Shown here one piece after another: positions 33,598 through 42,008 of a stretch of 64,000 nt of DNA. Each line of letters opens with the position of its first letter. Position 1 is the first letter of the stretch. A model generated the notes under the pieces. It ran no database searches, was not told the DNA's origin, and saw only the letters and a list, made by a program, of their open reading frames with translations. The position numbers were made by a program, and so were the translations under genes. Source of the stretch: Agathobacter rectalis ATCC 33656 (lineage in GTDB: Bacteria; Bacillota; Clostridia; Lachnospirales; Lachnospiraceae); assembly GCF_000020605.1 (NCBI RefSeq), contig NC_012781.1:868001-932000 (forward strand). Reading direction: 5' to 3'.

Positions 33598-33627
33598 TTG
33601 CAAGAATAGGTAAAACCGTAGTATAAT
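33598..33627 (+). promoter_or_regulatory. Promoter of the GGDEF-GH53 fusion gene
   Basis: TTGCAA (33598-33603), 18 bases, TATAAT (33622-33627); start codon 50 bases downstream. Confidence 0.65.
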
Positions 33628-33677: not shown

Positions 33678-36600
33678 ATGAAGAAAATTGCTCTTTTGGC
33701 TGATGGCTGGAGAAGATATGTAATATATTCGTGGGTTGAGGGTATCATGGGAGGCTCTAAAGAGCTGGGACTGGATGTGTGCCTGTATTTTTACAACACC
33801 AACGGAACCTGGAGTCAGGATTCAAAGTTTAACAAAGGCGAGTATGCGCTGAACGATTTGCCTGATTTAAACAGTTTCGACGGAGTGGTATTTGACTGCA
33901 CCAATACGACCAACCTGGATGAGATACAGTATATGGTCAGAAAGCTTCAGTCGGTAAATGTGCCGGTAGTGAGTATCGGGTATAAGGTTGATGGGTTTTA
34001 CTATGTAGGCAACGATAATAAGAGGCTGTTTCGCAAGGTAATGGATCATATGTACTATGCGCATGGCTGCAAAAGCTTTGTGTTTGCAGGTGGTCCGCCG
34101 TATCATTATGAGAACAGAATGCGTTTTGAGGCCTTCAAGGAGGCTTTAAGTGATTATGGCATACCACTTACAGCTGATATGTACATGTTTGGTGATTTTG
34201 ATTATCAGACAGGTGTCAGGTATATGAGTGATTGGCACGAGAGCAAAAAGCCGTTACCGGATGTTTTTTTATGTGCAAATGACAATATAGCAGCAGGACT
34301 GTGTGCGACAGCAGAGGTTCTTGGATACAAGGTACCACAGGATTTTAAGGTCACAGGCTTTGACAATCTGGATAAGGCTGCGTATTTTAACCCACAGATT
34401 ACAACAGTGGATAACAACAGGGGCAATATAGGCAGAAATGCTCTTGAGATATTTAAGGCGCTTTGGAATGGCACGGGCGATGCTTCTGATAAATACCTTG
34501 ATTCTGAGTTTATCCCGGCTGAGAGCTGCGGATGCCCTAATACCGGCAGAGTGGATTATCGTAATTACATAAAGAATATTATCAAAGGCTCCGTTGCAAG
34601 AGAGCAGGAGGAGGATGCAGTAATGATCCTCCAGAAAGAGCTCGAGGAGTGCAATGAATACTATGATTTGTTTGAGAGATACTCTGACTATATACAGAGC
34701 ATGAAGTGTGACGGAGTGTATGTGGTCGGTGTTTCTGATCTGGCAGCTGCAAGGAACAATGCACACTTTAGGAAGCATGGCTATGATATTGACGACGAGG
34801 TTGTACTCTATGCGGATGACAAGGACAATGGAAAGCTTGAGTTTAAGAGTGTAAATGACCTTATGCAGTACATGCAGAGTGTAGATAAAAACACCTGCTA
34901 TATGTATTGCTCGCTGCATTTCAGGGACGAGATAGTGGGCTATGTAATACTCAGGAATCCTGAGTTTTTGTACGACCATCCTGAGCAGTTTGATATACAG
35001 TCTGCCCTGCTCAAGAGGCTTGAGAATCTTTTTAAGCAAAAGGTACTTGAGAATACAAATAATGAGCTTAAGAATCTCTACAACCATGATGCGCTCACAG
35101 GCCTATACAATCGTGTGGCATGCAATGAGATGGTCATTCCTATGTTTGCTGAGCTTGAAGCTCAAAATGTCGGCTGCACCATAGTATTTCTCGATGTGGA
35201 TGATTTCAAGGATATAAATGATACCTACGGACACCAGTACGGTGACGAGCTTTTAAAGACTGTGGCGAGGGTGCTTGATGAGCAAAAGCCTGAGGGAAGT
35301 ATGGTATATAGATTCGGTGGAGATGAATTTATCGTGTTTATCCCTGGGGACAGACATGACACTGCTGAGAAGTATATAAAGCGCGTGTATGATATCATGG
35401 AGCAGCACAGCCTGTTTATCAGTCACGGCATCATATATACGAAGCCGGGCAGTGGTAAGAGCTTTGACGATTATCTAGTAAGTGCTGACACAAAGATGTA
35501 TCAGCTTAAGCAGCAGCGCAAGCAGAAAAAGGATAGCAATTTCTTAAAGGGAGTGGATATTTCATCCGTTCCTATGATGGTTGACAATAATATACAAATA
35601 ATGGACAGGGAAGGTCATGTGTGCAGGGTATTTGATTTTTTAAAGCTGAATAATGTAAATTCAGTCCGTCTGCGCATATGGAATGAGCCTGATAAGGTGC
35701 CGGAGTCTAAGGGGTATTGCAGTCTTACATATGTTCTCGAGATGGCTCATGTCATTAAAAAATACAAAATGCATTTTCTGCTTGATTTTCATTATTCAGA
35801 TTACTGGGCAGATCCGGGACAGCAGAATAAGCCTGATGCGTGGAAGAATTTAAGCTTTGATGAGCTGAAGGAGGCAGTGCACAAGTACACATATGATGTG
35901 CTATACAGATTAAAAATCATGGATTGTGCGCCGGATATGGTTCAGATTGGCAATGAAATAAGGAGTGGTATGCTGTTTCCGGATGGTGCAGTGCCACAGT
36001 ACAGGCAGCTGGCTGCGCTTGTAAATGAGGGAATCAGAGCTGTCAGGGAGCTGCTCCCGGAGACAAAGGTCATGATTCATCTGGATCAGGGAGGCAGATA
36101 TAACTGTATTATGCCTTGGTTTGATTCTATGTTTAATGCGGGCATGCTGCCGATTGACGCGATTGGCCTTTCCTTTTATTCGTTCTGGCATGGTACCTTC
36201 ATGGATTTGAAGGATACTATGAGCAGGCTCATAAAATTATATAATCTGCCGGTTTATATTGTGGAGACAGCTCATCCGTGGAGGCATTGCAAGGGAGATC
36301 ATATCTCGAAGGAACTTATGGAGACTGCAGGCCTTGATGCAGGCAGCGCAGAGCAGAAGAAGTCTCTTGAAATAATCATGCAGATAGCAGCAGAGGTGTC
36401 AAAGGATACCGGAAAGACAGGTGTATACTACTGGGAGCCTGTCGGTGTGCCTGGTAAAGGCATGGGAACCTGGTTTGAGAATATGGGTATGTTTGACGAG
36501 CATGGCAGGGCTTTGCCGGGCTGGGATGCAATCAGGGACTTTGATCCGAAAAATCCGCCGATTAAAGAGCTTGACAAGTATATTGAATCACTTTATGAGT

Positions 36601-37070
36601 ATGAAGAAACACCGGAGGTGGAGGATTTCATGAAGCTTCTTATGATTCATGGAAATCTAATCTCAAATCCTGAATTCAAGGATGGATTTAATAATTGGCA
36701 GATTGAGACAAGCCTCGAAGAAGGACAGTATACACTGGGTAAGGATGGAGTGTTTATCTCTTCAGATGCCAATTTTGACTATTCGATAAGCCAGACGGTG
36801 GATATTGAATATACCGGTGAGTATATAGCAGCGGTTGACTATAGAGGAACCAATACAACAGGTGTCGAGGTCGAGCTGTTTATGGATGTGGAGGATGAAA
36901 GCGGCGTTCATACATATACAAGCGACATTTTCCCCGATGATATCAGGTTTGTGACACATCTGCTTAAGCCGGTAAGGCTGCAAAAGAATGCCAGGGTGAC
37001 AGTAGGGCTTAGAATGCATACTCCTCCGGTGTTTGCAAAGATAAAGAAAATTTCACTCGTTGTAATTTAA
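33678..37070 (+). CDS. LacI-like sensor / GGDEF diguanylate cyclase / GH53 galactanase fusion
   Basis: 1130 residues in one uninterrupted frame; ATG 33678 follows AAGGGG. (1) ~1-300: LacI/GalR-type periplasmic-binding fold without DNA-binding helix (KIALLADGWRRYVIYSWVEG, DVFLCANDNIAAGL, VTGFDNLDKAAYFNP). (2) ~300-455: linker with coiled coil and a GAF-like segment. (3) ~460-620: diguanylate cyclase with DALTGLYNR, DVDDFKDINDTYGH and GGDEF at 547-551; no RxxD inhibitory site. (4) ~624-955: glycoside hydrolase family 53 (endo-beta-1,4-galactanase) starting GVDISSVPMM, acid/base Glu760 in QIGNEI and nucleophile Glu863 in IVETAHPW. (5) ~990-1130: beta-sandwich, carbohydrate-binding-like (NLISNPEFKDGFNNWQ). 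No signal peptide or membrane segment, so it seems cytoplasmic. It may couple intracellular galactan fragments to cyclic-di-GMP; inference. Confidence 0.9.
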   Translation: MKKIALLADGWRRYVIYSWVEGIMGGSKELGLDVCLYFYNTNGTWSQDSKFNKGEYALNDLPDLNSFDGVVFDCTNTTNLDEIQYMVRKLQSVNVPVVSIGYKVDGFYYVGNDNKRLFRKVMDHMYYAHGCKSFVFAGGPPYHYENRMRFEAFKEALSDYGIPLTADMYMFGDFDYQTGVRYMSDWHESKKPLPDVFLCANDNIAAGLCATAEVLGYKVPQDFKVTGFDNLDKAAYFNPQITTVDNNRGNIGRNALEIFKALWNGTGDASDKYLDSEFIPAESCGCPNTGRVDYRNYIKNIIKGSVAREQEEDAVMILQKELEECNEYYDLFERYSDYIQSMKCDGVYVVGVSDLAAARNNAHFRKHGYDIDDEVVLYADDKDNGKLEFKSVNDLMQYMQSVDKNTCYMYCSLHFRDEIVGYVILRNPEFLYDHPEQFDIQSALLKRLENLFKQKVLENTNNELKNLYNHDALTGLYNRVACNEMVIPMFAELEAQNVGCTIVFLDVDDFKDINDTYGHQYGDELLKTVARVLDEQKPEGSMVYRFGGDEFIVFIPGDRHDTAEKYIKRVYDIMEQHSLFISHGIIYTKPGSGKSFDDYLVSADTKMYQLKQQRKQKKDSNFLKGVDISSVPMMVDNNIQIMDREGHVCRVFDFLKLNNVNSVRLRIWNEPDKVPESKGYCSLTYVLEMAHVIKKYKMHFLLDFHYSDYWADPGQQNKPDAWKNLSFDELKEAVHKYTYDVLYRLKIMDCAPDMVQIGNEIRSGMLFPDGAVPQYRQLAALVNEGIRAVRELLPETKVMIHLDQGGRYNCIMPWFDSMFNAGMLPIDAIGLSFYSFWHGTFMDLKDTMSRLIKLYNLPVYIVETAHPWRHCKGDHISKELMETAGLDAGSAEQKKSLEIIMQIAAEVSKDTGKTGVYYWEPVGVPGKGMGTWFENMGMFDEHGRALPGWDAIRDFDPKNPPIKELDKYIESLYEYEETPEVEDFMKLLMIHGNLISNPEFKDGFNNWQIETSLEEGQYTLGKDGVFISSDANFDYSISQTVDIEYTGEYIAAVDYRGTNTTGVEVELFMDVEDESGVHTYTSDIFPDDIRFVTHLLKPVRLQKNARVTVGLRMHTPPVFAKIKKISLVVI

Positions 37071-40396: not shown

Positions 40397-40540
40397 ATGA
40401 AACACGTAAAGACATTAAATACAAGAAAATTACAGAACACAGTTAAAAAGGGCGGATGTGGCGAGTGCCAGACATCATGCCAGTCAGCTTGCAAGACATC
40501 TTGTACAGTTGGAAACCAGACTTGTGAGCAGTACAAATAG
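40397..40540 (+). CDS. scfA: SCIFF ribosomal peptide precursor
   Basis: 47-residue precursor of the six-Cys-in-forty-five family, a ranthipeptide type RiPP found in almost all Clostridia. The leader MKHVKTLNTRKLQNTVKKGG is followed by a core with Cys at 21, 24, 28, 32, 36 and 43 (CGECQTSCQSACKTSCTVG ... CEQYK). In characterised relatives the maturase joins Cys sulfur to beta or gamma carbons of nearby residues such as Thr. AAGGAG precedes the ATG. A terminator/attenuator separates it from its maturase gene, so the peptide should be made in excess. Too short for simple gene finding but unmistakable. Confidence 0.95.
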   Translation: MKHVKTLNTRKLQNTVKKGGCGECQTSCQSACKTSCTVGNQTCEQYK

Positions 40541-40559
40541 TCATAGGTGAAGCGGATTT

Positions 40560-40592
40560 AAAGAGTGTGCGCTGATAGGTGCACACTCTTTT
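40560..40592 (+). terminator. Partial terminator between SCIFF peptide and maturase
   Basis: 11-base stem AAAGAGTGTGC / GCACACTCTTT, 10-base loop and a four-T run. Short run, so some read-through to the maturase gene is expected. Confidence 0.75.
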
Positions 40593-40637
40593 CGCAGTGT
40601 AATTTTAAAATGTGTATAGAAAGAGAGGAATATTGTA

Positions 40638-42008
40638 GTGGTTCATCAGTACAGGAACAACGGCTATAATATTGTCTTAGATGTCAACAGTGGCGCAATC
40701 CATGTGGTGGATGATGTCACATATGACGTTATTGAGCTGTTTGAGGACAACTCAGCTAAGGAGATTATTGAAAAGCTTGTGGACAGGTATCCACAGACGG
40801 AGATAGAAGAAGCAATACAGGAAGTAAATGAGCTTAAGGATAATGAAGAGCTCTTCACAGAAGATACATACAAAGAGCGTATCATAGATTTCAAGAAGCG
40901 CCAGACAGTTGTAAAGGCACTTTGCCTTCACATCGCGCACGACTGCAACCTTGCCTGCAGATATTGTTTTGCAGAGGAGGGCGAGTATCACGGCAGACGA
41001 GCTCTCATGAGCTACGAGACAGGAAAACAGGCACTTGATTTCCTGATTGCCAATTCAGGCAGCAGAAGAAACTTAGAGGTAGACTTCTTTGGAGGAGAGC
41101 CTCTCATGAACTGGGATGTGGTGAAGCAGCTTGTGGCATATGGAAGAGAGCAGGAGAAGCTTCATGACAAGCATTTCAGGTTCACACTCACCACAAACGG
41201 TGTGCTCTTAAATGACGAGATTATGGAGTTCGCCAACAAAGAGATGGATAATGTAGTTCTTAGTATAGACGGACGCAAGGAGGTTCATGACCGTATGAGA
41301 CCTTTCAGAAAGGGTGCCGGCAGTTATGACCTTATTGTTCCGAAATTCCAGAAGTTTGCAGAGAGCAGACATCAGGACAAGTACTATGTGAGAGGTACAT
41401 ACACACATTTCAATACTGATTTTTCAAAGGATGTGCTTCATCTGGCTGATTTAGGCTTCAAACAGATTTCGGTTGAGCCTGTGGTGGCACAGCCTACAGA
41501 TGAGTATGCACTTAAGGAATCTGATTTACCTGTGCTCTTTGATGAGTACGACAGACTTGCAGCAGAGATGGTAAAGAGAAACAAGGCAGGAAACGGCTTC
41601 AATTTCTTCCATTTTATGATAGATTTAGAGGGAGGACCTTGTGTATATAAGCGTCTTTCCGGTTGTGGCTCAGGAACTGAGTACCTGGCAGTGACTCCAT
41701 GGGGAGATTTATATCCATGCCACCAGTTTGTGGGCAATGAGGACTTCCTTATGGGTAATGTCTGGGATGGCATCAAGGCCACTGACATCCAGGATGAGTT
41801 TAAGTGCTGTAATGTTTATGCCAAGGAAAAATGTCGCAACTGTTTTGCCAGATTCTATTGCAGCGGTGGCTGTGCCGCCAACTCATACAACTTCCACGGC
41901 ACAATCACTGATGCCTATGATTTAGGCTGCGAGCTGCAGAAGAAGCGTATAGAGTGCGCTATCATGATTAAGGCAGCAGAGGCTGATATGGCAGATGATG
42001 CACAATAA
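40638..42008 (+). CDS. scfB: SCIFF radical SAM maturase
   Basis: 456-residue enzyme that installs thioether cross-links on the SCIFF peptide. The N-terminal ~85 residues form the peptide-recognition (RRE-like) domain; the radical SAM cluster motif is CNLACRYC (Cys103, 107, 110); FFGGEPLMNW and SAM-binding strands follow; the C-terminal SPASM domain carries the cysteines of CGSGTEYLAVTPWGDLYPC and CRNCFARFYCSGGC for two more Fe-S clusters. GTG start at 40638 after AGAGGAA. Followed by secDF, a conserved neighbour in Clostridia. Confidence 0.96.
   Translation: MVHQYRNNGYNIVLDVNSGAIHVVDDVTYDVIELFEDNSAKEIIEKLVDRYPQTEIEEAIQEVNELKDNEELFTEDTYKERIIDFKKRQTVVKALCLHIAHDCNLACRYCFAEEGEYHGRRALMSYETGKQALDFLIANSGSRRNLEVDFFGGEPLMNWDVVKQLVAYGREQEKLHDKHFRFTLTTNGVLLNDEIMEFANKEMDNVVLSIDGRKEVHDRMRPFRKGAGSYDLIVPKFQKFAESRHQDKYYVRGTYTHFNTDFSKDVLHLADLGFKQISVEPVVAQPTDEYALKESDLPVLFDEYDRLAAEMVKRNKAGNGFNFFHFMIDLEGGPCVYKRLSGCGSGTEYLAVTPWGDLYPCHQFVGNEDFLMGNVWDGIKATDIQDEFKCCNVYAKEKCRNCFARFYCSGGCAANSYNFHGTITDAYDLGCELQKKRIECAIMIKAAEADMADDAQ

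Follow-up and report, generated by a model that had tools for sequence, protein, structure and literature searches.

A LacI-type sugar-binding domain, a GGDEF domain and a GH53 galactanase domain in one predicted protein of Agathobacter rectale

Results

The fusion gene

The stretch of DNA analysed here (the window) comprises 64,000 nucleotides of the genome of Agathobacter (Eubacterium) rectale ATCC 33656, which is a single contig of 3,449,685 bases. It contains a gene in which a LacI-type sugar-binding domain, a GGDEF diguanylate cyclase domain and a GH53 galactanase domain follow each other in one reading frame. A preliminary description, made from the sequence alone, had placed these three parts in one polypeptide; a domain search finds all three in a single uninterrupted open reading frame (ORF) of 1130 codons. 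The features of the gene are listed below by position in the window, with residue numbers of the predicted protein.

33598..33627, + strand, sigma-70-like promoter, TTGCAA-18-TATAAT (best score in the promoter scan and placed correctly; consensus match only)
33678..37070, + strand, whole fusion gene, single ORF of 1130 amino acids plus stop, LacI-like / GAF-like / GGDEF / GH53 / CBM61-like
33678..34535, + strand, LacI/CcpA-type sugar-binding domain without helix-turn-helix (HTH), residues 1-286 (Pfam Peripla_BP_3/4/1; fold match to CcpA, RbsR and LacI cores)
34548..35042, + strand, middle domain, alpha-beta, residues 291-455 (predicted topology; GAF-like by secondary-structure order)
35043..35528, + strand, GGDEF diguanylate cyclase domain, residues 456-617 (Pfam; NCBIfam TIGR00254; GGDEF at 547-551, DVDDFKDIND at 506-515)
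35529..36557, + strand, GH53 domain, acid/base E760, nucleophile E863 (Pfam, PDB matches, fold match, conserved motifs)
36603..37067, + strand, CBM61-like beta-sandwich, residues 976-1130, beta part from about 1000 (profile match, fold match)

The earliest in-frame start codon is TTG 33639. The position of ATG 33678 is the start in nearly all relatives, which share the opening MKK[IV]ALxxDGW, and a ribosome-binding site (AAAGGGG) lies just 5' of it. The promoter match suggests that the fusion gene has its own promoter. A stop codon or frameshift near 35540-35560 in relatives would have pointed to two genes, but the fusion was found in 14 further species. Because it occurs in 15 species, the fusion is neither a sequencing error nor strain-specific. 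The domain architecture can be regarded as almost certain.

The sensor and cyclase half

The N-terminal part is the LacI-like ligand domain that had been read from the sequence. Pfam places Peripla_BP_3 at residues 126-273 (E 3e-20, far above the cut-off), and residues 1-286 match the CcpA, RbsR and LacI cores with fold Z scores of 23-25. There was no match to the LacI HTH DNA-binding domain, and the protein begins at the first beta strand of the core. It therefore has only the ligand core of LacI/GalR regulators and is not itself a LacI regulator. The middle domain (residues 291-455), searched alone, gave no Pfam match, even at an E value of 5; its order of strands and helices suggests a GAF-like domain. 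In the predicted structure a long helix (437-470) runs from the middle domain into the GGDEF domain, an arrangement seen in many regulated cyclases.

The GGDEF domain was found by Pfam at residues 469-616 (E 2e-31, also far above the cut-off). Its motif is intact, and the metal- and guanine-binding residues D506, D508, K511, N514 and D515 are invariant in 19 aligned relatives. This domain lacks the inhibitory RxxD site and reads PEGS at 538-541. An AlphaFold2 model of the full protein, built from 42 aligned relatives, had a mean predicted local distance difference test score (pLDDT) of 87.6 and a predicted template modelling score (pTM) of 0.49, so the domains are modelled well and their relative placement is uncertain.

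The GH53 domain and the C-terminal module

Pfam detected GH53 (PF07745) at residues 624-948 with an E value of 1e-86 (291 bits against a cut-off of 24). Residues 619-962 matched solved GH53 galactanases with fold Z scores of 34-40 over 289-326 residues. E760 is part of the sequence VQIGNEI and E863 of VETAHPW, and they stand where the solved enzymes have their acid/base and nucleophile motifs. Both catalytic Glu residues named in the preliminary description are thus in place, and they are kept, with their flanking motifs, in all fusions compared. The ratio of nonsynonymous to synonymous substitutions (dN/dS) between the host protein and its 76%-identical counterpart in G039 (G numbers denote genomes, L numbers loci) was 0.09 for the LacI-type domain, 0.07 for the middle domain, 0.07 for GGDEF, 0.11 for GH53 and 0.26 for the C-terminal domain, figures that are rough at so high a dS (1.0-1.9). 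In distant fusions GH53 is among the best-conserved parts, with identities of 58-65% against 44-52% for GGDEF. All domains are under purifying selection, and both GH53 and GGDEF are apparently intact. A degenerate or vestigial GH53 domain is ruled out by the intact motifs and purifying selection.

The C-terminus alone gave no Pfam match, again even at an E value of 5. A profile of 22 relatives matched the C-terminal module of Geobacillus GanA (E 4.8e-10) and TmCBM61 (E 7.6e-4). Folded alone, the domain had a pLDDT of 93.4. Its best fold match by two programs was TmCBM61 in complex with beta-1,4-galactotriose (Foldseek E 5e-10; Z 17.4, root-mean-square deviation 1.9 over 131 residues). CBM16 and CBM4 modules came next, and because these related modules also score Z 14-16, we describe the domain as CBM61-like and divergent. 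The C-terminal beta domain noted earlier is therefore real, CBM61-like by profile and fold, and it is likely to be a divergent CBM61 member that is predicted to bind galactan.

Cellular location and host sugar use

The protein has no hydrophobic stretch. Kyte-Doolittle means over 19 residues peak at 1.17 in the whole protein and at 0.71 in the N-terminus, in agreement with the earlier observation that a signal peptide and a membrane segment are absent. The fusion lacks the marks of a secreted galactanase: neither leader nor membrane anchor was detected. Separate GH53-CBM61 relatives have no leader either; they too start with the barrel itself, FxKGxDIS lying among their first residues. It had been remarked that GH53 enzymes are normally secreted and that a cytoplasmic one serving as sensor is unusual. 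The lack of an export signal stands, but the location is not odd by itself, because leaderless GH53 proteins are common in this group and the host has a second one. The latter is in a galactan/galacto-oligosaccharide locus (L113:1297-13005; G000:C1:1255296-1267004) with genes for AraC, a solute-binding protein, two ABC permeases, a GH2 LacZ beta-galactosidase, the GH53 protein without signal peptide, galactokinase (GalK) and GalT.

Signal peptides were reported on only 7.9% of the glycoside hydrolases of this group, and the authors left open whether the remainder are intracellular (PMC5320581). In the same study the tested E. rectale strains did not grow on type-1 arabinogalactan and some used galacto-oligosaccharides, a pattern expected for intracellular galactanases. 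Taken with the missing leader and the second leaderless GH53, these data indicate that the enzyme most likely meets imported oligosaccharides.

Distribution and origin of the fusion

The fusion was found in 15 species of 7 genera of Lachnospiraceae. Four of the 62 species of the host's genus have it (G000, the host, with G039, G045 and G026), and so do 7 of the 397 Lachnospiraceae genomes sampled, host included; none was found outside the family among 391 genomes drawn from the class. Further fusions are in G417, G418, G067, G100 and G415 (those of G418 and G067 are cut on the N-terminal side by contig ends) and in G1239, G1241, G1242, G1243 and G1189 (locus L192). In G346 a contig end interrupts the gene, the two pieces of which overlap. 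LacI-GGDEF proteins of 617-650 amino acids without any GH53 are widespread, occurring in most species, and free-standing GH53-CBM61 enzymes were found in many.

G047 has one gene for each half, and the two are located on different contigs (L102:259-2112 and L103:9378-10973). In a tree of residues 1-617, nine fused rows, G346 and the split G047 form one clade of 11 with a support of 100 in the SH-like approximate likelihood ratio test (SH-aLRT). When the tree is drawn from the GH53-CBM61 part, a single clade of 15 (SH-aLRT 100) unites ten fused rows with five separate genes, and a separate GH53-CBM61 gene of G010 (L105:8910-10424) nests among the fused ones. Both are quick trees without bootstrap, drawn before G1239, G1241, G1242, G1243 and G1189 were found, and each requires three state changes. 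The simplest account is one fusion followed by occasional splitting, with repeated fusion as a possible alternative. The forms in G010 and G047 are probably secondary splits.

Gene neighbourhoods

Separate GH53-CBM61 genes in G405, G121, G179, G227 and G205 adjoin ABC transporter genes and GH42 and/or GH35 beta-galactosidase genes. A nearby LacI regulator is confirmed by Pfam in one of these five loci, and its relatives are in the other four. In a different clade of LacI-GGDEF proteins, the gene immediately upstream of LacI-GGDEF encodes a plain cytoplasmic GH53 protein of another subfamily in G404, G717, G390, G1177 and G1225 (loci L115:6150-11297, L166 genes 5-7, L114:8878-11937, L181 and L182). 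GH42 is nearby in G404 and G717, and a GalE-like gene in G390. No GH53 gene was found within 1.5 kb of LacI-GGDEF in G1200 and G1229, of the same clade, and among some 35 further unfused LacI-GGDEF loci that were inspected not one has such a GH53 neighbour. A link between LacI-GGDEF and intracellular GH53 has thus formed two or more times, involving distinct GH53 subfamilies, and this speaks for a functional tie.

The fused gene itself shows no conserved operon with a common galactan context, though five species of genus g42 share an adjacent GH13 gene. In G417 (L093:6792-15893) a GH13 alpha-amylase-family gene precedes the fusion, and immediately after it come a gene with an EAL domain and a second, distant LacI-GGDEF gene; the locus is a compact sugar and cyclic di-GMP (c-di-GMP) cluster. 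The GH13 gene beside the fusion is also kept in four sister species of G417.

Four loci with separate GH53-CBM61 genes (L106:3935-10834, L103, L104 and L107) adjoin a divergently oriented conserved set, which includes a metallophosphatase and an 800-amino-acid protein without Pfam match, with an S8 subtilase in three of the four. At first sight this set is unrelated to sugar use. Elsewhere in the window (40397-42008) a short Cys-rich peptide ORF is followed by a radical-SAM protein, by eye a SCIFF peptide and its maturase. Such pairs are widespread in Clostridia.

Discussion

Proposed working

We propose that the fusion is a cytoplasmic sensor-cyclase tethered to an enzyme that processes imported galacto-oligosaccharides, the two being coupled through a galactan-derived sugar, and we give this reading a probability of about 0.5. 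The architecture, the missing export signal, the intact catalytic motifs, the conservation, the CBM61-like fold and the repeated linkage of LacI-GGDEF with cytoplasmic GH53 in evolution are computed results; the two enzyme activities, the identity of the ligand and the coupling with its sign are inferred. A LacI-type sugar-sensing diguanylate cyclase would be covalently joined to an intracellular GH53-CBM61 galactanase, and the latter would bind and cut imported beta-1,4-galacto-oligosaccharides. The ligand of the LacI-type domain would be a small sugar that arises in this pathway, probably galactose or galactobiose. The signal would pass through the middle domain and helix 437-470 and alter GGDEF activity, and the presence or flux of galacto-oligosaccharides would thereby change c-di-GMP near the site of hydrolysis. 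The tethered GH53-CBM61 half may either supply or compete for the sugar that the LacI-type domain reads.

The host has 18 GGDEF matches above the cut-off, 7 EAL and 3 PilZ domains, so a network exists to receive such a signal. The preliminary description had suggested that the GH53 part could act on imported galacto-oligosaccharides or be a ligand-binding module. The former fits the context of the separate relatives and the host galactan locus. As to the latter, the LacI-type domain is the most likely sensor, since LacI-GGDEF proteins of 617-650 amino acids without GH53 are so widespread. That galactan supply sets c-di-GMP, as also suggested there, is plausible. A stricter form of the proposal is a self-contained transducer, in which the tethered galactanase makes the sugar beside the LacI-type domain and c-di-GMP reports the flux of hydrolysis rather than a static sugar level; we regard it as possible but doubtful.

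Several observations weigh against the proposal. No galactan operon surrounds the fused gene in the genomes whose neighbourhood was read; in the window its neighbours, named by eye, are an opposite-strand small ORF, a trigger-factor-like protein and an asparaginyl-tRNA synthetase. LacI-GGDEF proteins do without GH53 in most species. The clade with the adjacent GH53 gene is not the fused clade, so the ligands of the two may differ. In G047 the halves are separate, and tethering is therefore dispensable there.

Alternative explanations

The same facts fit an uncoupled bifunctional protein, whose LacI-GGDEF half senses some other sugar while an ordinary GH53-CBM61 galactanase travels along for expression or localisation and leaves the cyclase unaffected. 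Either half occurs alone, LacI-GGDEF in most species and GH53-CBM61 in many; G047 has both as separate genes, and the separate gene of G010 nests among fused ones. However, 7 genera have kept the fusion and its linker is short, and another clade links LacI-GGDEF to a second subfamily of GH53. We consider this explanation unlikely.

Domain fusion alone gives no direction, and the GGDEF domain directly precedes GH53, so the galactanase could instead be regulated by the LacI-GGDEF half through binding of sugar, GTP or c-di-GMP. This is quite improbable, as every catalytic residue of the GGDEF domain is retained, PEGS (538-541) stands where the inhibitory RxxD site would be, and GH53-CBM61 is a separate gene elsewhere. 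Reuse of domains as sensors is known in general, and the CBM61-like module could add affinity to a GH53-CBM61 half that only binds galacto-oligosaccharide as a second sensory input. Such a non-catalytic receptor is very unlikely to be what the protein contains, because in the fusions compared every catalytic motif examined is intact, with conservation like that of the separate enzymes. The joining of two adjacent genes by a sequencing or assembly error, for which nothing was found, has a negligible probability and is ruled out by intact fused ORFs in many independent assemblies.

Meaning of the coupled reading

If the proposed coupling is true, the fusion would be a rare example of a second-messenger protein that incorporates a carbohydrate-active enzyme, and it would point to galactose or galactobiose as the likely class of ligand for a large family of orphan LacI-GGDEF proteins. 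The adjacent GH53 genes of the other clade offer a hint of the same kind for this orphan family of sensor cyclases. The sequence evidence suggests that galactan may be wired directly to bacterial signalling. As far as we found, the link of c-di-GMP to diet in gut Firmicutes has hardly been studied. With a sugar sensor, a cyclase and a polysaccharide enzyme together in one protein of a bacterium abundant in the human gut, this question could be addressed directly in vitro.

Comparison with known systems

In the literature searched, outside which most subscription papers lie, we found no description of the fusion, nothing on point on LacI-GGDEF in E. rectale or Lachnospiraceae, and no published name for the LacI-GGDEF sensor cyclases of this family. 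This agrees with the preliminary description, which did not recognise a described system. A CAZy GH53 entry of E. rectale M104/1, ERE_21070 (CBK94002), was mentioned in passing as having a Glyco_hydro_53 domain and resembling a GGDEF protein (PMC5342196). Judged from that description the entry is probably this gene as found in a second strain, which means that CAZy probably lists the fusion, though unstudied. A HAMP-GGDEF protein was labelled GH53 through a CAZyme server (PMC5457731), and the GH53 label on plain GGDEF proteins may be a misannotation carried over from a fusion entry of this kind. The architecture is real, conserved and built from known parts, and apparently undescribed.

The LacI-GGDEF sensor cyclases of Lachnospiraceae (about 617-650 amino acids) align end to end with residues 1-617, with identities up to 55%, and share the LacI-type, middle and GGDEF domains. 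They stop after GGDEF, whereas the fusion carries 510 more residues with GH53 and the CBM61-like module. The intracellular GH53-CBM61 enzymes of the family (about 505-575 amino acids) align end to end with residues 620-1130 at 37-55% identity. Like the fusion they have the same catalytic motifs, the C-terminal module and no signal peptide, but they are free-standing, without sensor or cyclase, and in several genera lie beside ABC transporters and GH42/GH35 genes. The secreted galactanase of Bacillus licheniformis (1ur0, 2gft) and Geobacillus GanA (9fli) have the same barrel fold and catalytic Glu pair, and GanA carries a module related to the C-terminal domain. Unlike the fusion, both are extracellular and unlinked to signalling domains.

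Two other long LacI-GGDEF fusions were scanned and both are LacI-GGDEF-EAL proteins (L164:2871-6671 and L165:4103-6820); the one of 1266 amino acids has about 390 further residues without Pfam match. Neither of two other long GGDEF proteins of the host that were scanned carries a sugar enzyme. Like the fusion, the LacI-GGDEF-EAL proteins join an extra C-terminal enzyme domain to the LacI-GGDEF sensor half; there the added domain is a c-di-GMP phosphodiesterase, and in the fusion it is a sugar enzyme.

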